From NCBI GenBank assembly GCA_029260435.1, contig JAJDDG010000142.1, positions 43,148 through 107,147 of the forward strand: DNA of 64,000 nucleotides. Direction: 5' to 3'. The position numbers and the translations under genes were made by a program. How positions within the stretch are numbered: the first letter of the stretch is position 1; each line of letters starts with the position of its first letter. Under the pieces are notes generated by a model. That model searched no databases. It saw only the letters and a program-made list of their open reading frames with translations, and was not told the origin of the DNA. Positions 39 through 27,121 of the stretch are shown here, piece after piece. Source of the stretch: Phycisphaerales bacterium (lineage in GTDB: Bacteria; Planctomycetota; Phycisphaerae; Phycisphaerales; UBA1924).

Positions 39-725
39 CTAGCGGCGGCGGCGGCGGCGGGTGGCGAGGAGGGCCGAGAATCCGAGAAGGGAGATGCTTG
101 CAGGCGTTGGGATGTCATGGTGTCGGAAGGTGATTGTCGCCATGTCATTGACGAACTTGGAGTCGGGGATTTTGAAAGCGAGCCAGAAATCTGCGACGTC
201 ACCTGGTGCCAGACCGGGAGGGCCCTCGAACCATATTTCTGTGGGCATGCTCGGTAGGTTTTGGGAGACATTCGGGAAGCGTCCGAGGAGTTCGTTTGGG
301 GGGAAGGCGCTGGTGAGCCCCTTGAACGCCAGTCCTGGGTATTCCTGGTAGTTCGCGCCGAGTCCCATGCCTATTTCGAAGTGCATACTCGGTACATGTT
401 GATTCGTGTTGTTCGTGACATCGATATCGGTGGCGACCATTTCCTCACCGGATGATCCGGCACTCCGTGTGATCTTGATCTCAAACTCCATCCAGAGCCC
501 GTCGTTATCGAAAAATGTCAATATCTGCGTCATTCCCATCCCGGCAAGTCCCTGATGGAAATTGGCGTCAAAGAATGAGTCTGTTGCGGGGTCGAAATTG
601 GGATCACCGGTCACGCTGAGGATTTCCATATCGATGACAGCGGCATCGACGGGTAGCGCACATACAGCCACGGCCCCGAGGGCCGCGCATACGAACATGC
701 TCGGTTTACGAAGACTTGTATTCAT
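39..725 (-). CDS. PEP-CTERM-like secreted protein
   Basis: A 228-residue exported protein of unknown function. The start at 725 is preceded by AAAGGGAAA and begins a clear signal peptide ending near VDA-A. The mature part has no motif I recognise. The C-terminus has the sorting-tail layout: IPTP, a hydrophobic stretch, then six arginines, a PEP-CTERM variant with Thr in place of Glu. In this family an exosortase removes the tail and the protein goes to the envelope or outside; that is inferred here, since no exosortase gene is in the window. The Arg tract is coded by a near-perfect GCG/CGG triplet repeat at 42-61. It lies downstream of a similar exported protein and a LuxR-type regulator on the same strand. 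Confidence 0.75.
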   Translation of the reverse strand: MNTSLRKPSMFVCAALGAVAVCALPVDAAVIDMEILSVTGDPNFDPATDSFFDANFHQGLAGMGMTQILTFFDNDGLWMEFEIKITRSAGSSGEEMVATDIDVTNNTNQHVPSMHFEIGMGLGANYQEYPGLAFKGLTSAFPPNELLGRFPNVSQNLPSMPTEIWFEGPPGLAPGDVADFWLAFKIPDSKFVNDMATITFRHHDIPTPASISLLGFSALLATRRRRRR

Positions 726-873
726 CGTGTTTCCCTTTTTCCTATGTTTCCCGTTGTTTACTATCGGCTCCATCGCCGAACCACACATTCAACTCGGAAC
801 CACTTCAATGCCCAGTATTGTCAAGTGACGTTCCGACCTAAGACGCATGCTAGATGAGGGGAAGTGAAGAATG

Positions 874-905
874 CGCTTACATATCGGGGTGTCACCCGAG
901 CGGGT
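874..905 (-). repeat. hairpin element copy A (paired with 1812-1843)
   Basis: This 32-bp element matches 1812-1843 at 25 of 32 positions, and all seven differences are transitions. It contains a short stem (894-897 with 902-905) around a GAGC loop on the + strand. In the two copies the outer pair changes A-T to G-C and the inner pair C-G to T-A, so pairing is kept. It lies about 150 bp upstream of the exported-protein gene that starts at 725. It could be a regulator binding site or a leader RNA structure. Confidence 0.6.
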
Positions 906-974
906 GATGCAGTCGGACGGGTTTGCATTGCGCGCGTATTCGTCATTCGGTCTCGAACTATTTGCGCAGCACAG

Positions 975-1010
975 CACAAACACGGCCCGCCCCGGGAATG
1001 GGACGGGCCG
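975..1010 (-). terminator. probable terminator after 1041-1706
   Basis: CGGCCCG at 983-989 pairs with CGGGCCG at 1004-1010. On the minus strand the hairpin is followed by an interrupted T-rich run (TGTTTGTG). It sits just downstream of the PEP-CTERM-like gene. The weak T run keeps confidence moderate. Confidence 0.45.
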
Positions 1011-1040
1011 ACGAGTTGTTTCGGAGTTGTTTATGCGGTG

Positions 1041-1706
1041 TCAGCGTCGGCGACGGGTTACGCACAGGGCACCCATCGCGAGGAGAGGGAGTGCGCCGGG
1101 AGTGGGGATCCATTCGCCGTGGAAATCGAAGATGACGGGTTCGGTGCCGTCGTTTGTGACGGTGAGCCAGAATCCCGTGATATCGATGTACTCAAAGTGG
1201 TCGTGGAAGGAAATCCACTGGTCGAAGGTGACCGGTTCCCAGAACGAGAATTGTGCCTGGAAGTCGTACCACTCCTGGGTGATGGCGGTGTGCCACCATG
1301 CCATCTCGTATGGAAGGGTCGGGTCCGCGGGGATCGCGCTGGGTGTGTTGACATCGGTGAATACATGGATGTCGTTAATGGGATCAACCGGGTCCAGCAG
1401 CCAGATATCCGAGGTGAAGGGGACGGAGCTCTGCACGCTTGCGTGGCTCCATTCGGCTTCCAGCAGATGCATAGAGCCCATGACGTCGATGGTGGTATGG
1501 ATGGTGCCGGGGGTCTGGAAGTGGAAACTCTCCCAGTCCCAGAGCGCGGTATAGGTGAGATTGATCTCGTGGAATGAATACGACTCTCCGGGTTGCAGCG
1601 TGATGCCGGTATCCCAGAATGTGACCGCGTTAGCATTGCTTGCGCTGAGCGCGAGCACGGCGGCACCTGCCGCTGCCAGTAATGCTGTTTTCGAACGCAT
1701 TTTCAT
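1041..1706 (-). CDS. PEP-CTERM-like secreted protein, Trp/Phe-rich
   Basis: A 221-residue exported protein of unknown function. The start at 1706 follows a strong AGGAGGAGG site at about 1710-1718; an ATG two codons later is the alternative. The signal peptide runs to about residue 27 (SNANA). The mature region is unusually rich in Trp, Phe and His, with no catalytic motif I can name. The C-terminus is IPTPGALPLLAMGAL followed by VTRRRR, the same sorting-tail layout as the gene ending at 39. Copy B of the hairpin element and a LuxR-type regulator lie immediately upstream, which suggests shared control. Confidence 0.75.
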   Translation of the reverse strand: MKMRSKTALLAAAGAAVLALSASNANAVTFWDTGITLQPGESYSFHEINLTYTALWDWESFHFQTPGTIHTTIDVMGSMHLLEAEWSHASVQSSVPFTSDIWLLDPVDPINDIHVFTDVNTPSAIPADPTLPYEMAWWHTAITQEWYDFQAQFSFWEPVTFDQWISFHDHFEYIDITGFWLTVTNDGTEPVIFDFHGEWIPTPGALPLLAMGALCVTRRRR

Positions 1707-1811
1707 AGCCTCCTCCTCGTTGAGATGATGCCGACTGCTGGGCACTCGGCGATGGTGCCGGGCGCTCTTTGGCATCACGAAGGCCACCCTAGTTGTGGGG
1801 AGGGAGAAAAT

Positions 1812-1843
1812 CGCTCACATGTCGAGGTGTCGCCTGAGCAGGC
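1812..1843 (-). repeat. hairpin element copy B (paired with 874-905)
   Basis: The second copy of the 32-bp element. Its stem is 1832-1835 with 1840-1843 around the same GAGC loop (+ strand sense). The first base of the LuxR-type gene's stop codon (1843) falls inside the stem. It lies about 105 bp upstream of the start at 1706. Position upstream of two similar exported-protein genes and the compensatory changes in the stem argue for function rather than chance. Confidence 0.6.
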
Positions 1844-2202
1844 TAGTTCAGAGGGAGGACATCACACTTGCCGTCGCGGGCGGCCTGTGGGCAGGCGTGG
1901 CAGCAGGCTGCGAATATGTGTAGCAGCAGTTCGCAGCGGTCGTGCACCCCGAGTTTGGTGTACAGGCGGCGGAAGTGCGAGTGGACGGTGTGCACAGATA
2001 TTCCCAGCGACGTGGCGATCATTGTTTCGCTTTCGGCGTTGAAAAGATGCTGCACCATCTCAAGCTCGCGTGTGGAGAGTTTCAGATGTTCGGAAATACA
2101 GTTCCACTGCTCCTCAGATAAAAGGCAGCGTACAGGGCGGGATGGCGTTGGAGGCTCGAAAGCGCAGCCAGAACAGGTGTGAATCGAGGTGTTTGTGGAC
2201 AT
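1843..2202 (-). CDS. small LuxR-family HTH regulator, Cys-rich
   Basis: A 119-residue DNA-binding protein with a LuxR/GerE-type helix-turn-helix at about residues 40-95; the recognition helix region contains SVHTVHSHFRRLYTKL. There is no receiver or ligand-binding domain. Instead the ends carry cysteines: C10xxC13 in the N-terminus and CC100-101, C104 and C113 in the tail, nine Cys in all. That pattern could bind metal or sense redox state, which is inference. The gene lies directly upstream of the two PEP-CTERM-like genes on the same strand, so they are its most likely targets. The start at 2202 is ATG. Confidence 0.75.
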   Translation of the reverse strand: MSTNTSIHTCSGCAFEPPTPSRPVRCLLSEEQWNCISEHLKLSTRELEMVQHLFNAESETMIATSLGISVHTVHSHFRRLYTKLGVHDRCELLLHIFAACCHACPQAARDGKCDVLPLN

Positions 2203-2867: not shown

Positions 2868-3182
2868 TCAGGAAACGGCCTGCTTGGCGGCTTCTCGCAT
2901 CTGACGCTTTGCCTCGGGTGAGGGGGAGCGGCGGATGGCGGTGCGGGGCTGCTCTCTGCCCCGGAGGCGGCGGAAGAGCAGCTTGCTCATGCGGCGTGTG
3001 TCCGCGGATGACATGTAGTCGCCCTTGCGGAGACGGCGGAGGCGCGTCGCGGACTTGCTGGAGCGCAGGTGCTTGAAGCCAGCGGAGGCGTGTGTGACCT
3101 TGCCGGTTTTGGAGATACGGATGCGCTTGAGCAGGCCCTTGTGGGGCTTGGTCTTGCGGGGTTTACCTACTTTGTTGGGCAT
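2868..3182 (-). CDS. rpmI: 50S ribosomal protein L35, C-terminally extended
   Basis: The start at 3182 gives MPNKVGKPRKTKPHKG, the typical L35 N-terminus, with CAGGAG upstream. The usual L35 of about 65 residues is recognisable to around residue 65; the product is 104 residues, because about 40 residues rich in Arg, Lys, Ser and Glu follow. The extension could be a lineage-specific rRNA-binding tail. infC, which normally precedes rpmI, is absent: the next gene upstream on this strand is an unrelated PilZ protein. Confidence 0.9.
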   Translation of the reverse strand: MPNKVGKPRKTKPHKGLLKRIRISKTGKVTHASAGFKHLRSSKSATRLRRLRKGDYMSSADTRRMSKLLFRRLRGREQPRTAIRRSPSPEAKRQMREAAKQAVS

Positions 3183-3314: not shown

Positions 3315-4457
3315 TCAGGCGGCGGCTTTTCGGCACATGACGGCGAGGTGGCGGAGCTGGGAGTGGGATTCGGCGACGGAGCAGGAGGCGTCGAGCTGCT
3401 GGAGAGCTGTCTGGGCGAGTTCGGAGAGCTTTTCGAAGCCGAAGCTGGTGCCGGTGCCTTTGATGCGGAGGCAGCTCGTGCGGACGGTGTCGATGTCGTC
3501 GTCGGCGATGCATTTGTCGAGTGTGATGGCGAGATCCTGGACCTCCTTGACGTAGCTTGCGAGGAGTGGGGCGAGGGAGGCGTCATGAGAGAGGGAGCTT
3601 TTGAATTCTTCGGATTTGGTGAGTCCGGAGGTGCGTTCGAATGAGGAGGCGAGCATTGTCTGCAGGGATAGTGGAGAGAACGGCTTGCGGAGAACGTCGG
3701 TGACGTTTGAGTTTGCGCCCGCGGCGGCGGCGAGGCGGTCGTCTGCGGTGAGGAAGAAGAGTTCGCCGAGGAAGTCGGCTTCGCGGATCGCGGCGGCTGA
3801 GTCGGCGGGGTTGGTATCGGGGGCGTCGGCATCGATCAGGACGACGTCGTACATCCCCTTCTTGAATTCATCGATCGCCAGACCTGCGCGTTCGAAGGCT
3901 TTGAACTTGACATCGGTGCCTTTGACGTAGTGTTCGAAGAGTGAGATATCTGATTGAGAGGGGGAGATGTAGAGTACCCAGCCGTTGAGCCCTTCGGGCT
4001 TCTGGTTGTCTTGTGTGAAGATCCCGTCGGTGTCCTCTTCCTGGAGGAAGAAGAGGGGGTTGATCTTTATAGCAAAGTTGACACCGACCTCGTGGATTTT
4101 TGCGCGGAGGTGGCGGCAGTGTGTGGCTCGTCCCTCGATGACTTCCTCTTCGCCGTCGTTGCGGACGAGGGTGACTTTGAGCGGGGAGTTGGGGTGTACA
4201 AAGACATTCGTGATGAGGCTGATGCCCCACGCCGAGATGTTGCGTGTGCAGCACCTGATCGCGGAGTTGCCACCGCCGATATGCTCGATAGCGAGGGTGG
4301 CGTCGCACATACGGCGGCGGCCTCGGACATGCTTGCGGCGTTCGGCGTGTGGCGGGACGGCGGTTTCGCGCTCGCAGCTATCCAACAGCGCGGTGAGCTG
4401 TGGCTTTGAGAGGCAGGGGGCTAGCTTGCCATCGAGATGTTCGTGCGCAGCACTCAT
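3315..4457 (-). CDS. PilZ protein with pseudo-receiver and pseudo-Hpt domains
   Basis: A 380-residue cytoplasmic protein with three domains. A PilZ domain (about 37-140) keeps both c-di-GMP motifs, RKHVR near 41-45 and NISAWG at 73-78. A receiver-like domain (about 159-272) keeps Asp209, Thr237 and Lys258 but has YISPS where the metal-binding acidic pair should be. An Hpt-like domain (about 285-375) reads LRIKG at 330-334 where the phosphorylated His-x-Leu-Lys-Gly belongs, so the histidine is Leu330. It probably senses c-di-GMP and acts through protein contacts rather than phosphotransfer. No kinase or diguanylate cyclase is adjacent. Confidence 0.75.
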   Translation of the reverse strand: MSAAHEHLDGKLAPCLSKPQLTALLDSCERETAVPPHAERRKHVRGRRRMCDATLAIEHIGGGNSAIRCCTRNISAWGISLITNVFVHPNSPLKVTLVRNDGEEEVIEGRATHCRHLRAKIHEVGVNFAIKINPLFFLQEEDTDGIFTQDNQKPEGLNGWVLYISPSQSDISLFEHYVKGTDVKFKAFERAGLAIDEFKKGMYDVVLIDADAPDTNPADSAAAIREADFLGELFFLTADDRLAAAAGANSNVTDVLRKPFSPLSLQTMLASSFERTSGLTKSEEFKSSLSHDASLAPLLASYVKEVQDLAITLDKCIADDDIDTVRTSCLRIKGTGTSFGFEKLSELAQTALQQLDASCSVAESHSQLRHLAVMCRKAAA

Positions 4458-5992: not shown

Positions 5993-6595
5993 TCAGTCGT
6001 TTGCTGCTTCGCGTTTATCGGCGGCAATCTGGGTTGCCTGCCAGGCCTTGGCGAAGGCGGCGACTGCGGCGTGGAGGCGTGATTTGACGGTGCCGATGGG
6101 GATCTCGAAGGCATCCGCGATCTGGGCGTAGGTCATGCGTTGGAAGTAGGCGAGGAGGAGGATCTCGCGGAGGCGCGGCGGGAGCGTGTCGATCGCGGCT
6201 TGGACCTGAACGGAGAGGTCTGCGGTGTCGAGGGGTGCGGAGACATCGGGGATATTGATCTGCAGGAGGTCCACCATTTCAGCGCCGGAGTCTGCGCCGA
6301 GCGGGGTATTCAGGGAGACGGCGCGGCGGCGTTTGAGCTTTCGGAGGGCGTCTCGTCCTTTGTTCGCGGCGATGGTGAAGAGCCACGGCTTGAATGTGCG
6401 GGATGTATCAAAGGATTCGATGGATTGATGGACCTGGAGGAACGTGTCCTGGAAGACATCTTCGGCGGTGTGGCGTGAGCCGGTGAGGCGGACGAGGAAT
6501 CCCAAGAGCGGGTCGTGATAGCGCTCGATGAGGAGACGGAACGCAGCGGTGTCGTGCGCAAGGTAGTCCTCGACGAGTTCGGCATCGGTACGCAT
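5993..6595 (-). CDS. ECF RNA polymerase sigma factor (RpoE-like)
   Basis: A sigma-70 family factor of the extracytoplasmic type, 200 residues from the ATG at 6595. Region 2 includes the segment HTAEDVFQDTFLQVHQ; region 4 near the C-terminus includes LPPRLREILLLAYF, YAQIADAFEIPIGTVKSRL. A longer version from GTG at 6700 would add a 35-residue Pro-rich leader; the shorter start fits family length better. The next gene downstream encodes a single-span membrane protein, so the two probably form a sigma/membrane-partner pair responding to an envelope signal. Confidence 0.88.
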   Translation of the reverse strand: MRTDAELVEDYLAHDTAAFRLLIERYHDPLLGFLVRLTGSRHTAEDVFQDTFLQVHQSIESFDTSRTFKPWLFTIAANKGRDALRKLKRRRAVSLNTPLGADSGAEMVDLLQINIPDVSAPLDTADLSVQVQAAIDTLPPRLREILLLAYFQRMTYAQIADAFEIPIGTVKSRLHAAVAAFAKAWQATQIAADKREAAND

Positions 6596-6807
6596 ATACG
6601 GATCCTGGGGCACGCTCTCACTCTCTAGGGGGTTCTTGTCCACACGGCATCCTAGGGATGCTGCTGGTTGTTGTACGGGCGCGGGGTTCGGGGTGTTCAC
6701 TGGGGGATTGGAATGGGTCTGGGGCGGTGAGATGTGGGTGTTTATGGGGTGGTTGGGCAGGGTGCGGCATGACGGCTACGATGCCCCCCCACCAAACCCC
6801 CCCACAT

Positions 6808-8075: not shown

Positions 8076-8134
8076 CGGGTCCGCTGCATCGAGTGTCCGC
8101 GGTGCTGTTTACTTAGCTGATCTTGGAGGAATAC

Positions 8135-9757
8135 ATGATGTTGATTTTACGTGGAGCCTTGGCGGGAGCGGTGTGTCTGTGCGCGGGCGCGGGTGTTGTC
8201 TTTGGTGAAGCTGCGGTGAAAGAGTCGGTTTCGAAAAAGGCGGCGGTGCATCGGCCTGCGGCGGGGCAGCTGCGGGGGGCGGCGCACGTGCATACAGATT
8301 GGTGCGTGCATCGCGCGGAGATGGATATCGATCAGCTTCTGGCGGCGAGACGAGGCGCGGGGATGCGCGGGGCACCCATCGGTGAGGTGGAGCCGAACGA
8401 TGCGCCGGGTTCGGGGCAGTTCCTGAATCTTGGGACGGGTCCTGGGGAAGACGCTGCGATTGATGTGTCCGGGACGCTCTCGGCGACGGACGAGGATGAG
8501 TTCCGGTTCAACCTGCGGGCTGGGGACATCTTTGGCGTCGCGGTGAACCGGGCGAATGGGAGCCCGCTGGATCCGATCGCGTCGCTCCATGACAACACCG
8601 GTTTCAACATTCACGAGAACGATGACGGCAACGGGTTCTTCTCGATGCCGGACGATACACCGGTGCCGCTGATTCAGACGACCACTCGTGAATCGATGCT
8701 TCAGTTTATTGCGCCGGTGGATCTTGAGTTTCGTATTCGGATCCGAGTGTGGAACCAGGATGCGGGCAGCACGGGGGATTACCTGGCGAGCTTTGCGGTG
8801 TTCCGTCAGCCGATGGAGAGCGAGCTGCCCGCGGCGCAGCAGACGATCTTCGTTGATTTCGATGGCGAGACGATCAATGCGCAGTTCCATTTCGGCACCG
8901 GGAACAACCCGGCGAACCTATCGCCACTCTCGTCTTTTCTTGGTGCCTGGGGGTTGTCTGGCGGGGATGAGAACGCGGTGATCGACGCGATCCTCGCGGT
9001 GCTTGATGCGCGGTTCACCGAGATGGCGGTGCATAACCCGAGCTTCGGGTACGAGCTTTTGAACAGCCGGGATCACGCGGATCCGTTTGGCGGGGCAGAT
9101 GTTTCGCGGCTGATTGTTGGCGGGACGATCGCGGAGTCGGGGATCAGCACGATCGGGATCGCGGAATGGATCGATCCTGGGAACTTCTCTCGTGACGACA
9201 CGGCGATCATTCTTCTGGACCTGCTGAGTACCAGCGGGAGCGGCGTCGGGATCCAGGATTTTCCGCGTGATGCGGGGTTCTCGTTGATCGAGGCGATCGG
9301 TCGTGTGGTTGGGAACATCTGCGCGCACGAGGCGGGGCACTACCTCGGTTGTTGGCACACGCAGAACGAGAATTCGACACCGAACATTATGGATCAGGGC
9401 GGGGGCAACTCGTTTATCACATCGATCCCCGGGCTCGGCAACGACGGGATCATGGGCACGGCGGATGACAATCCGACGGAATTTGTGATCGACGAGTTTG
9501 AGACGGAGGGGATCGGTGTCGGTCTTGAGATCTGCGATCAGCGGATCGGGACTGCGCTGACCACGCTCGCGGGCGCTGGACCATGCGATGGCGATGCGAA
9601 CGGCGACAACACGGTTGATGTCAACGACATTTCATATGTGTTGTTCCGGCTTGGCAATTCGGGCACACCCGGCACGGTCGATGGTGACGCGAACGGCGAT
9701 GGGATCGTTGATGTGAATGACATCTCGTTTGTGCTGTTCCGGCTCGGGGGGTGTTGA
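8135..9757 (+). CDS. secreted metzincin-type protease with dockerin repeats
   Basis: A 540-residue exported zinc protease. The ATG at 8135 has GGAGGA five bases upstream; the signal peptide ends near GVVFG. A PPC-like beta domain (EVEPNDAPGSGQF onward, about 85-225) is followed by the catalytic part. The motif HEAGHYLGCWH (His398, Glu399, His402, His408) is the metzincin zinc site, and PNIMD about 10 residues later looks like the Met-turn. The C-terminus has two dockerin-like repeats (9587-9655 and 9680-9748) with calcium-loop pattern DxNxDGxxDVND. The next gene is a carboxypeptidase with the same tail. Confidence 0.85.
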   Translation: MMLILRGALAGAVCLCAGAGVVFGEAAVKESVSKKAAVHRPAAGQLRGAAHVHTDWCVHRAEMDIDQLLAARRGAGMRGAPIGEVEPNDAPGSGQFLNLGTGPGEDAAIDVSGTLSATDEDEFRFNLRAGDIFGVAVNRANGSPLDPIASLHDNTGFNIHENDDGNGFFSMPDDTPVPLIQTTTRESMLQFIAPVDLEFRIRIRVWNQDAGSTGDYLASFAVFRQPMESELPAAQQTIFVDFDGETINAQFHFGTGNNPANLSPLSSFLGAWGLSGGDENAVIDAILAVLDARFTEMAVHNPSFGYELLNSRDHADPFGGADVSRLIVGGTIAESGISTIGIAEWIDPGNFSRDDTAIILLDLLSTSGSGVGIQDFPRDAGFSLIEAIGRVVGNICAHEAGHYLGCWHTQNENSTPNIMDQGGGNSFITSIPGLGNDGIMGTADDNPTEFVIDEFETEGIGVGLEICDQRIGTALTTLAGAGPCDGDANGDNTVDVNDISYVLFRLGNSGTPGTVDGDANGDGIVDVNDISFVLFRLGGC

Positions 9758-9861
9758 GCGGGGTATTATGGGGTTGGAGGGGCATTAGAAGAAGGTATGG
9801 GAATCGGGGGGGGAGTGGTGGTAAGGTGGGGGGGGAAGAGTGTCCGATGGAGGAAAAACTT

Positions 9862-12171
9862 ATGCGTCGTTTACCCCTTGTTGGTGTCGTTGTTGCTGTT
9901 GCTGTGCTGGGTCGCTTCGGGTTTGAGGCGGGGGCCCAGAACGGAGCGGTCGAACGCGAGCATGTGTACGAGAATATCCGGCTCGTCGTTGTTGAGCCTG
10001 CGAGCAAAGAAGAGGCGAGTGTTGTGCAGCGGCTGGGGCAGTTGCTCGCGTGTCGGGCGGCACCGGGGGCGCAGCCCTATCTGATGAGCGAGAAGTCGGT
10101 CGCCGAGTTGGAGCGGGTGGGGATCCGGCATTTCGTGGAGCACGAGAACATGCGCGAAGTCGTCGAGCAGCGGGCGCGGGAGTACGAGGCGATCCGGGCG
10201 CGGCGTGGTGTCGGGTTCTTTGATGTGTACCGCACGCTCGCGGAGATCGAGGCGCAGTTCGATGCGCTGGTTCTCGCGAAGCCGAATGTGATCTCGAAGG
10301 TGAATGTTGGGACGAGCATCCAGGGGCGGACGATCTGGGGGTATCGGATTCTTGCGCCTGACGCTGTGGCGAATCCGGTGCGGGTTGTGATCAATGGCAC
10401 GCAGCATGCTCGCGAGTGGCTGAGCCCGATGACGAATACGTTCATCGCGACGGAATTGGTCAATGACCACGGCGTGAGCCAGGTGGTGACGGACATGCTG
10501 CGGCAGGTGGAGATTGTGATTATCCCGGTGGTGAACCCGGACGGGTTTGTGTACACGCACACGACCGAGCGGTTCTGGCGGAAGAACCGGCGGAACAACG
10601 GGGGCAGCTTCGGTGTGGATCTGAATCGAAACTGGGGGTATGAGTGGGCGGGCGGGCAGGCAGGCTCATCGAGCAGCAGCCCGTCTAGTGAGGTGTATCG
10701 CGGGACAGCGCCGTTCTCCGAGCCCGAGAGTGCGGCGGTGAGCGCGTTTATCGCTTCGTTTAGCGATGTTCGTGGGCACATTGACTTCCATACATACGGG
10801 CAGTGGATATTGGGGCCGTGGGCGTACAACGATACGATTACGCCGCCGAGGGCGTCGGAGCATCGCACGGCGCAGAACGAGATGGCTGCGGCGATTCAGG
10901 CGGCGGAGGGGCTGACTTATGTGGCGGGGCTCGGCACGGACCAGTTGCTGTACACGGCTGACGGGGTCATGCCGGACTGGACGCTGGGTGATCAGGGGGC
11001 GCTGTCGTGGACAATCGAGCTACGCCCGACTGGTGGCGGGTTGGGGCCGTTTGATCCGCCTGCAAGCAACATCCTTCCTGCTGGGAACGAGGGGCTTGCG
11101 GCGCTGCTGAAACTCGCGGAGATCGCACAGCGGGAATTGGATTTCAGGTTCCCGTCGGGGCGTCCGGTGGCGTATGAGGCGGGTACAGGTGAGACGTTCC
11201 CGGTCACGCTTTTCCGGTGGCATGAGTTGCAGGTGGTTCCGGGCTCGGTCCGGATTGCCACACGGGATAGCGGCGCGGGCGCGTTTACGGAAACAGCTTT
11301 GAGCGGTAGCGGGGACAGTTACACAGCAGCGCTGCCGATCGCACCGTGCGGGAGCACGGTGGAGTACTACTTCCTCGCGGACCTTGTTGGCGGGGGCACG
11401 GTGCTTGAGCCGGCGGACGCACCGGCGAGTGTGTACACGGCGGAAGCGGTGGAGTTCATCGATGTTGTTGCCAACGATTTTGAGAGTGATCCCTCGTGGA
11501 CACTTTCGGGATCACCGAGTTCGGGCGCGTGGGTGCGCGCAACGCCGGGCAATTTCGGTCAGGCCGATCCGCCATCGGATAGCGATGGCTCGGGGCAGTG
11601 CTACGTTACCGGGAACAGTTCGGGCGAGACGCTTACGGGTACTACGGTGCTGACCACACCTCCCTACGATCTATCCCAGCCCGGCACGCTCTCGTATGAC
11701 TACTGGTTGAAGGTCTGGGGCGTTGGTAATGGCAGCACGTCCGGCGGTGATGCGCTGCGACTGGAATATGCGACGAATGCGGGCGGCACCAACTGGACAC
11801 TGGTGCGAAATCACAACACGGTTTCGTCTGTGTGGAATACCGAGGTGCTCCAGATAGGAACGGGTGGTGATATTCCCTCGTCTGCGACGTTGCGCTTTCG
11901 GTTTACGGGCCTGGAAGCCCAGTTCCCTACGCCCTTTGAGGCGGGCATCGATTCATTCCAGATCACTGCGGGTACCACGTGCGCCCCGGTCGGTTGCGAC
12001 GGTGACGCCAACAGCGACAACATCGTTGATGTGAACGACATCTCGTTTGTGTTGTTCCGGCTTGGTGATTCGGGCACGCCCGGCACGGTCGATGGCGACG
12101 CGAACGGGGACGGGATCGTTGATGTCAATGACATCAGCTATGTGCTGTTCCGGCTTGGCCCCTGCGTCTGA
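9862..12171 (+). CDS. secreted M14 zinc carboxypeptidase with dockerin repeats
   Basis: A 769-residue exported metallocarboxypeptidase. The ATG at 9862 has GGAGG eight bases upstream; an earlier ATG at 9847 lacks one. After the signal peptide and a prosegment-like region, the M14 domain has the zinc motif QHAREW (His182, Glu185), the substrate-binding stretches NPDG and DLNRNW, the third zinc ligand in DFHTYGQ, and the catalytic Glu in TIELRPTGGG. A beta-sandwich-rich region follows, then two dockerin-like repeats (11998-12066 and 12091-12159). The upstream neighbour is a metzincin with matching repeats, so the two probably work together outside the cell. Confidence 0.9.
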   Translation: MRRLPLVGVVVAVAVLGRFGFEAGAQNGAVEREHVYENIRLVVVEPASKEEASVVQRLGQLLACRAAPGAQPYLMSEKSVAELERVGIRHFVEHENMREVVEQRAREYEAIRARRGVGFFDVYRTLAEIEAQFDALVLAKPNVISKVNVGTSIQGRTIWGYRILAPDAVANPVRVVINGTQHAREWLSPMTNTFIATELVNDHGVSQVVTDMLRQVEIVIIPVVNPDGFVYTHTTERFWRKNRRNNGGSFGVDLNRNWGYEWAGGQAGSSSSSPSSEVYRGTAPFSEPESAAVSAFIASFSDVRGHIDFHTYGQWILGPWAYNDTITPPRASEHRTAQNEMAAAIQAAEGLTYVAGLGTDQLLYTADGVMPDWTLGDQGALSWTIELRPTGGGLGPFDPPASNILPAGNEGLAALLKLAEIAQRELDFRFPSGRPVAYEAGTGETFPVTLFRWHELQVVPGSVRIATRDSGAGAFTETALSGSGDSYTAALPIAPCGSTVEYYFLADLVGGGTVLEPADAPASVYTAEAVEFIDVVANDFESDPSWTLSGSPSSGAWVRATPGNFGQADPPSDSDGSGQCYVTGNSSGETLTGTTVLTTPPYDLSQPGTLSYDYWLKVWGVGNGSTSGGDALRLEYATNAGGTNWTLVRNHNTVSSVWNTEVLQIGTGGDIPSSATLRFRFTGLEAQFPTPFEAGIDSFQITAGTTCAPVGCDGDANSDNIVDVNDISFVLFRLGDSGTPGTVDGDANGDGIVDVNDISYVLFRLGPCV

Positions 12172-26008: not shown

Positions 26009-27121
26009 ATGAGCATGGGAATTGGCATTGTGGTGGCGTGCGGGATGTGCACTTTGGGGGGCGTCCCGCTGCACCTGCAGACGACGACCGATCTGGACCG
26101 GTGGATGTATCCGTTCAACGGATCACCTGGGTTCCGGACTGCGGCTTCTACATTCACGGCGATCGGGCAGGAAGAGGTGAGCGGGTTCACGTTCGACCAG
26201 CGCGACGGGCAGGTTCTGCTCGGGTTCGACAGTTCGGGTGTGTACCCGACGGCTCGCCCGGCGTGCCAGTACGTTGTGGATTCCGTCGTGCTCCGCGCCA
26301 CGATTTCCAGACACGAATCATTTGCGTACGACCCGACGCAGGACGATTTCTGCACGTACATCACGGATGTCCTTGACCCGGACTTCTGCGGCGGCGACAC
26401 GGATGTCGGCACCGGGTTGATTTCGACTGCACGCCCGATCGAATTGTTCGGGATCGGGTATCGAAACGGCTTCGGGCTCGTGAACGCGCCGGGTGTAACG
26501 GCGTTCACAGAAGTGTCTCCCCACGGCACGATCCAGAAGGAGATGCGGAACTTGTATCCGATCGATGGCAATGTCTACCCGTCGATTGGCTTGCAGACCA
26601 TGACGGACGACGTGTCGAACAATGTGCGAGATCGATTCAACCCCACGCCCTGGGCTCTGGGGATTGCCCCGACGCTGGTGTCGGGTGATACGGTGCCGGC
26701 GGATACGGAGTTTGTGTTTACGCTTGATGCTGGGGGCCTCGTGGCGGGGGAGAAGATGTACGAGTACGTCCGCGAGGGCTTGCGCTCGGGGCGCCTGCAC
26801 TTCCTGCTCACTGCGCTGCAGCCTGCGACGACGGACGGCGGGGGAGGATCGGGGGAGTTTGCCGAATTCTTCACGAAGGAAGACGTCATATTCGGTATCC
26901 CCGCGACGATCGAGGTGTTCGGTTCGCTGACATGCGACGGCGATGCGAACAGTGATTTCGCCGTAGATGTGAACGATATTTCGTATGTGCTGTTCAGGCT
27001 CGGAGATCTTCCGAACGGATCATGCGGGTGCTTGCAAGGGGATGCGAATGGCGACGGGATCGTAGACGTGAACGATATTTCGTACGTGCTCTTCCGGCTC
27101 GGGACATGCGACACAAGCTGA
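26009..27121 (+). CDS. secreted protein with two dockerin-like repeats
   Basis: A 370-residue exported protein of unknown function. The ATG at 26009 is preceded by GAGGAGAG; the signal peptide covers about residues 1-20. The central 290 residues match nothing I recognise. The C-terminus holds two dockerin-like repeats (about 26936-27004 and 27038-27106) with calcium-loop pattern DxN(S/G)D and DVNDISYVLFRLG, almost identical to those on the proteases at 8135 and 9862 but with a longer linker containing CGC. Same anchoring or assembly system is likely. Its 3' end lies 6 bp from a convergent lipoprotein gene. Confidence 0.75.
   Translation: MSMGIGIVVACGMCTLGGVPLHLQTTTDLDRWMYPFNGSPGFRTAASTFTAIGQEEVSGFTFDQRDGQVLLGFDSSGVYPTARPACQYVVDSVVLRATISRHESFAYDPTQDDFCTYITDVLDPDFCGGDTDVGTGLISTARPIELFGIGYRNGFGLVNAPGVTAFTEVSPHGTIQKEMRNLYPIDGNVYPSIGLQTMTDDVSNNVRDRFNPTPWALGIAPTLVSGDTVPADTEFVFTLDAGGLVAGEKMYEYVREGLRSGRLHFLLTALQPATTDGGGGSGEFAEFFTKEDVIFGIPATIEVFGSLTCDGDANSDFAVDVNDISYVLFRLGDLPNGSCGCLQGDANGDGIVDVNDISYVLFRLGTCDTS

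Follow-up and report, generated by a model that had tools for sequence, protein, structure and literature searches.

A duplicated upstream element and a candidate LuxR-type regulator at a locus encoding two PEP-CTERM-like, predicted exported proteins in a Phycisphaerales bacterium

In a Phycisphaerales bacterium (NCBI GenBank assembly GCA_029260435.1, contig JAJDDG010000142.1, positions 43,148 to 107,147 of the forward strand), a gene for a stand-alone LuxR-type regulator is followed by two genes for predicted exported proteins with tails like those of PEP-CTERM proteins, and each exported gene is preceded by a copy of the same noncoding element. The whole stretch of 64,000 nucleotides (nt) that was analyzed is referred to here as the window, and its coordinates are used throughout. 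What does the duplicated element do? An earlier reading of the DNA, made from the letters alone (the sequence-only reading), suggested that it might be either the operator of the regulator or a new leader RNA motif. The first suggestion survives as the best reading, with the operator still putative; the second does not, given two copies in the genome, matches in relatives at chance level, and ordinary folding of the sense strand. We put at roughly one half the probability that the element is a duplicated promoter/operator, bound as DNA by the adjacent LuxR-type regulator, which would switch both exported genes on together. The locus is probably a small, local, lineage-specific control circuit of a known kind rather than an instance of a widespread new RNA motif.

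The duplicated element and the genes behind it

All of the features concerned lie on the minus strand, in the order regulator gene (2202-1843), element copy 2 (1843-1789), exported gene 2 (1706-1041), terminator-like hairpin (1010-983), element copy 1 (905-850), and exported gene 1 (725-39), which bears out the description of a LuxR helix-turn-helix gene followed by two exported genes on one strand. The first base of copy 2 is the last base of the regulator's stop codon, and the copy ends about 83 nt 5' of the start codon of gene 2; copy 1 ends about 125 nt 5' of the start codon of gene 1. The hairpin, with 11 pairs, lies 3' of gene 2 and parts it from gene 1, but it is a pattern match only, and the 2.9 kb scanned for such sites contained 4 against 2.8 expected.

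The element had been described as a 32-bp sequence present at 874-905 and 1812-1843, and this was confirmed: the two 32-mers are identical at 25 of 32 positions, and all seven differences (at positions 5, 10, 14, 21, 24, 29, and 32) are transitions. The repeat is longer than first noted, extending over 56 alignment columns with 41 identities and one gap (850-905 against 1789-1843, or 55 to 56 nt). Its edges are abrupt; both blocks end in CTAG, and only 2 of the next six columns match. The 32-bp core, with 7 transitions and no transversions, differs in its pattern of change from the tail, in which 24 columns hold 4 transitions, 3 transversions, and an indel. Local alignment of the intergenic stretch between genes 2 and 1 with that between the regulator gene and gene 2 gave a score of 25, which none of 2,000 dinucleotide-shuffled intergenic pairs reached (mean, 9.0; standard deviation, 1.3; maximum, 16). 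On this alignment the two copies are homologous, their similarity lying beyond chance. Across the whole window, 33 same-strand pairs of 32-mers reach 25 of 32 identities, and there are 44 registers in which all differences are transitions, namely the element pair, one at 26960/27059, and 42 within coding repeats at 9.6 to 12.1 kb. Two other origins were considered and rejected. Gene duplication does not account for both elements, as convincing likeness between the two exported proteins is confined to a 22-residue tail. The layout, with an element after an open reading frame (ORF), also brought to mind an integron-type attC site, but neither GTTRRRY nor RYYYAAC, which we take to be the consensus, occurs in either block or its 20-nt flanks.

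Both exported proteins (gene 2, 1041-1706; gene 1, 39-725) are predicted to consist of an N-terminal hydrophobic helix, a beta-rich body, and a tail of the form PTP...RRRR in gene 2 and PTP...RRRRRR in gene 1; the tails were present as the sequence-only reading had reported (IPTPGALPLLAMGALCVTRRRR and IPTPASISLLGFSALLATRRRRRR). The helix appears in both predicted structures, which are low-confidence models made up mostly of beta strands (mean predicted local distance difference test scores, 46.1 and 54.5). Gene 1 has three orthologues (P0005, P0006, and P0007, at 61 to 69%) and gene 2 has one (P0003, at 62%). Against the PEP-CTERM model TIGR02595 (cut-off, 16 bits), gene 1 scored 12.5 bits in an hmmscan search of the window proteins and 16.3 bits in a scan of the genome; gene 2 was not listed in the former and was not among the 23 matches (E <= 1) of the latter, 13 of which, including gene 1, were over the cut-off. 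The same model also matched in 7 of 14 control genomes, and exceeded its cut-off in 2. Among the orthologues, P0003 (25.2 bits) and P0006 (19.7 bits) pass, while P0005 (14.8 bits) and P0007 (13.0 bits) fail. Pfam gave no match for gene 1 or gene 2, and none of the four orthologues exceeded the cut-off of its PEP-CTERM family (PF07589). The genome encodes an EpsH-type exosortase (TIGR02602, 133 bits against a cut-off of 105.55; contig C107), a family over its cut-off in none of the 14 control genomes. In a relative, G036 (locus L121, G036:C9), the gene 1 orthologue has a neighbor a few kilobases away that, by eye from the translation, appears to be a polysaccharide-export, exosortase, and EpsI-type locus, and this proximity fits gene 1 as an exosortase substrate. 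The planctomycete origin implied by the sequence-only reading fits three matches over the cut-off to PF07596 (SBP_bac_10), a family expanded in planctomycetes, against none in 14 control genomes, although such matches fall short of proof.

Distribution of the element and of the regulator

In its own genome (3.12 Mb, 92% complete), a sequence pattern allowing up to three mismatches found two matches. A covariance model of the two copies, which scored them at 79.7 and 76.4 bits, added one match at E = 2.4. The sequence-only reading had named a simple mobile repeat as an alternative, and this is unsupported, there being only two copies in an assembly of that completeness and a next-best match at that E value. 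It had also looked to further copies upstream of exported-protein genes in relatives, and as far as the available genomes allow, the covariance model found none above chance. Among 162 other genomes of the family, 11 gave a match at E <= 0.1 per genome, against about 16 expected by chance (best, 24.4 bits); these E values are rough, and the stricter filters used lose some weak matches. All 11 matches fall within open frames of at least 120 codons, a weak point since such frames are common in GC-rich DNA. In 120 relatives, the sequence pattern found one 3-mismatch match in each of 6 genomes, against 8 genomes for a reversed control pattern, and an exact 20-base degenerate pattern found no match in the IMG/VR collection. 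The comparison with relatives is a weak one, as the genomes compared include none of the same genus, and within the family only G036 has a close orthologue of gene 1 and only G040 a relative of gene 2; that relative is distant (36%), and its locus gave no match to the model.

Within the genome, the other 22 PEP-CTERM-type loci, some of which overlap and two of which end at contig ends, were scanned with filters off and held no copy as far as the loci reach (best, 13.4 bits). We also compared 30 sequences taken as PEP-CTERM-type upstream regions, set by a rough start-codon rule. Among the 435 pairs, that of gene 1 and gene 2 was the sole distinct noncoding pair above the maxima of five shuffled sets (15 to 19). 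The remaining high scores came from a stretch that had been retrieved twice, from loci that overlap, or from coding sequence of edge-cut ORFs, whose starts fell in coding sequence (checked for a pair scoring 26); locus L147 had no usable frame. Adjacent PEP-CTERM genes compared on contigs C133 and C23 have no such upstream block in common.

The regulator (1843-2202; 119 amino acids [aa]) matches GerE (PF00196) at 49.1 bits against a cut-off of 23.5, with residues 42 to 94 covering profile positions 3 to 55 of 57, and no other Pfam domain exceeds its cut-off. No NCBIfam cut-off was reached among the best 25 of 32 families. Among proteins of solved structure, a sequence search at E <= 0.001 gave one relative, the response regulator ChrA (4yn8; E = 1.1e-4). 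The protein database gave no match but the regulator itself, entered as a 71-aa call (P0001). The best match among 120 other genomes, in G076, which belongs to another family of the order (40% identity; E = 1.5e-15), aligns over residues 20 to 105 and thus includes the N-terminal stretch; because of this N-terminal similarity, the call P0001 is probably too short and the 119-aa frame is probably the real gene. In GTDB genome contigs, 18 loci match the regulator, mostly in actinobacterial metagenome-assembled genomes and strains, and are alike over about 45 to 80 residues around the DNA-binding domain.

Does the association of the regulator with PEP-CTERM genes extend beyond this locus? In G076, the homologue belongs to a similar row on one strand (L012, G076:C50; 175-1758, minus strand), in which a 90-aa GerE-type regulator is followed by an exported-looking 83-aa frame and then by a PEP-CTERM-type gene. 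Genomes with a match to the regulator number 99, of which 98 are other than its own. We inspected 30 of the LuxR-type loci, the window's own included, at one per genome and about 1.5 kb on each side. The tail pattern was present in 5 of the 30, and hydrophobic PEP-CTERM tails were recognized by eye in 2, the window's own locus and that of G076. The 23 PEP-CTERM-type loci fetched from the genome contained no match to the regulator at E <= 10 (the window's own locus, as fetched, stops short of the regulator), so the pairing in the window is the one such pairing seen in this genome. Taken together, these comparisons make the association of the regulator with PEP-CTERM genes suggestive, not statistical.

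What the element may do

Just downstream of the core, both copies carry a -10-like TAnnnT at the same position (TAGCAT in one and TAGGGT in the other), with no good -35. A TAnnnT of this kind, with the conserved core directly upstream, has the layout of an activator-dependent promoter. Under the reading that we prefer, the 32-bp core with its overlapping dyads would be the site of the regulator; the neighboring GerE protein would bind it and recruit RNA polymerase, which at each copy would contact the TAG..T at the block's 3' end. Transcription would then run separately from each copy into the gene behind it, yielding one message per gene, and the products may be exported, sorted by the exosortase, and anchored or released at the cell surface.

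The binding of the element by the regulator, and activation from it, are proposals, and several observations weigh against them. No sigma-70-type promoter passed a consensus scan. The region upstream of the regulator gene itself holds no copy of the element (430 and 454 of 1,000 shuffles score as well), and the intergenic stretch after the G076 regulator holds nothing similar (500 and 169 of 500 shuffles score as well). Among the 29 other LuxR-type loci, G076 is the only one with a convincing PEP-CTERM neighbor, and that gene falls just under its cut-offs (15.9 of 16 bits and 18.6 of 20.7 bits); the second-best match to the regulator, in G006, has about 630 bases of contig left on the side of the expected target, too few to judge. 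The locus of the gene 1 orthologue in G036 (69%) has no element by the model. Its upstream region aligns with that of gene 1 at a score of 14, which 19 of 1,000 shuffles reach, and the alignment is near the start codon, outside the element. The 19 kb searched around that orthologue also contains no match to the regulator.

This last finding speaks for an alternative in which the element is the promoter/operator pair of some other factor, for example another regulator or an alternative sigma factor, and the LuxR-type gene is a neighbor by chance. Also in its favor, a search of the genome with the regulator gave five matches, one of them the regulator itself, and the window contains a sigma-70-family gene (5993-6700) matching regions 2 and 4. 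We nevertheless consider this explanation unlikely. The regulator adjoins the element, with copy 2 touching its stop codon, and an element found at a single locus in the genome is more readily explained by a local regulator than by a global factor.

About equally unlikely, in our view, is a small, old duplication of about 55 bp with no function, in which the paired changes arose by chance. The changes at issue are those in which the sequence-only reading had seen two compensatory pairs in a 4-bp stem with a conserved loop. Both pairs are there, at positions 21/32 and 24/29 (ACCC-GAGC-GGGT in one copy and GCCT-GAGC-AGGC in the other), and the loop is unchanged. The covariation is weaker than it first appears. 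Since every difference in the core is a transition, base pairing is restored automatically whenever two of them land on paired positions, and the sole coincidence lies in where the changes fall. When seven transitions were placed at random (200,000 trials per starting copy), a preserved stem of 4 bp or longer, in which two pairs had changed on both sides, arose in 1.3% of trials starting from copy 1 and 0.37% starting from copy 2, or in 1.8% of 100,000 trials when stems of at least 3 bp were admitted, and the stem had been picked post hoc. Among base changes, transitions are commonly the most frequent. A functionless duplication would also account for the abrupt block edges and for the presence of two copies only, with none above chance in relatives. 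It fits less well with the arrangement of the copies, which share a strand and stand comparably far upstream of genes of one kind. The contrast between core and tail also speaks against it: the core is identical at 25 of 32 positions and free of transversions, whereas the 24 columns of the tail have taken up an indel and 3 transversions, a pattern suggesting that the core is constrained.

The same stem is the starting point for a third explanation, a cis-acting leader RNA in which a 4-bp hairpin with a GCTC loop would control translation or termination of each gene. The minimum-energy fold of the sense-strand RNA includes the stem in copy 1, where the fold barely surpasses those of shuffles (z = -0.88; 37 of 200 equal or better it), and lacks it in copy 2 (z = +0.25; 116 of 200); the opposite strand gave z values of -1.60 and +0.61. 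A terminator scan found no terminator at the stem, and no Rfam family reached its gathering score over the element. The core also preserves a competing dyad, RGG-N5-CCY (positions 14 to 24), with three pairs, of which one is doubly changed. This dyad uses position 24, so it excludes the hairpin pair 24-29; the change at position 24 is equally well compensated by position 14 within it, in keeping with a site for protein binding. Overlapping dyads with symmetric changes suit the site of a dimeric protein no less than they suit an RNA stem. A structured leader RNA should fold better than its shuffles and covary over several homologues; neither is seen here, where there are only two homologues. 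Two genomic copies, relatives at chance level, and a G036 orthologue that does not have the element make a general leader RNA unlikely, and we regard a leader RNA at this locus as the least probable of the explanations considered.

Related systems and neighboring genes

The regulation of PEP-CTERM genes has a precedent in Proteobacteria. As set out by Haft et al. (2006; PMC1569441), the cis-acting site there is a 17-nt motif ending in TTTACA, followed by a spacer and a sigma-54-type box with -24 (GG) and -12 (GC) elements; the system includes the PrsK, PrsR, and PrsT proteins and an NtrC-like regulator. Those authors report the site before 99 of 167 proteobacterial PEP-CTERM genes and in Proteobacteria only, describe the bacteria with PEP-CTERM systems as living mainly in sediments, soils, and biofilms, and anticipate that further regulators and DNA motifs are still to be found, including outside Proteobacteria. 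The locus described here resembles the Prs system in having a conserved DNA element in a long noncoding stretch before PEP-CTERM genes and a proposed dedicated DNA-binding regulator. It differs in that the element is a distinct 55-nt block, the regulator is of the GerE type, and there are two copies in one genome. TTTACA does not occur on the sense strand of either block or its 20-nt flanks, and no GG-N10-GC lies at an equivalent place in both copies; the only one in the region of copy 1, at 988, is upstream of the element. The element resembles the Prs system in outline and lacks the sigma-54 feature that defines it. Directly after copy 2, with no equivalent after copy 1, a GG-N10-GC is present at 1786-1772 (minus strand; TGGCCTTCGTGATGC), a weak -24/-12-like sequence that agrees at 7 of 11 letters with what we take to be the consensus.

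Among LuxR-type regulators, EpsA (TIGR03020), a regulator of XrtB/PEP-CTERM systems, offers a likeness in that a GerE-type DNA-binding domain is tied to PEP-CTERM/exosortase genes, and its score of 30.6 bits is the second highest among the NCBIfam matches listed. The regulator cannot be called an EpsA, as the cut-off is 170 bits and a 247-position model is matched by the DNA-binding end only of a 119-aa protein. The LuxR-type biofilm regulator CsgD (NF007505) shares the GerE match (28.8 bits, far below its cut-off of 250), and our regulator has no counterpart of its N-terminal domain. CsgD controls matrix proteins; what we take to be the consensus of its site, CGGGKGAGNKA, which literature searches did not return, resembles CGGGTGACACC of copy 1, while copy 2 fits less well. 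PedR (NF052366), itself a short GerE-type regulator with a 74-position model, is matched at 27.6 bits over residues 41 to 93, short of its cut-off of 120.

These comparisons raise the doubtful prospect that the locus contains the first regulator-operator pair for PEP-CTERM genes outside Proteobacteria, in which a minimal LuxR protein with GerE as its sole domain would read an activator-dependent promoter of 55 bp, present in duplicate, and so coexpress two exosortase substrates. Literature searches on PEP-CTERM regulation, planctomycetes, and upstream palindromes gave no such element or nonproteobacterial pair among the matches listed, as judged from titles and abstract openings. If the prospect is borne out, the pair would be a lineage-specific answer to the question, raised by Haft et al. 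(2006; PMC1569441), of how other PEP-CTERM genes are controlled. The two-gene target set, with the candidate regulator adjoining, is a small and directly testable example. If the element is merely a chance duplication, no such consequence follows.

Upstream (5') of the regulator gene and on the same strand lie rplT (2389-2763) and rpmI (within 2868-3182). Directly upstream of these, a gene at 3315-4457 (minus strand) encodes a single chain with a PilZ domain (25.0 bits, over the cut-off) and receiver-like and Hpt-like stretches, both below cut-off; the combination looks unusual. Farther away, at 8123-9757 and 9751-12171 (plus strand), two adjacent genes encode predicted secreted proteins with protease-like stretches, recognized by eye, and near-identical terminal repeats, GDANGDxxVDVNDISxVLFRLG, which resemble dockerin-type calcium-binding repeats. 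The DNA encoding these repeats accounts for the strongest same-strand repeats in the window.

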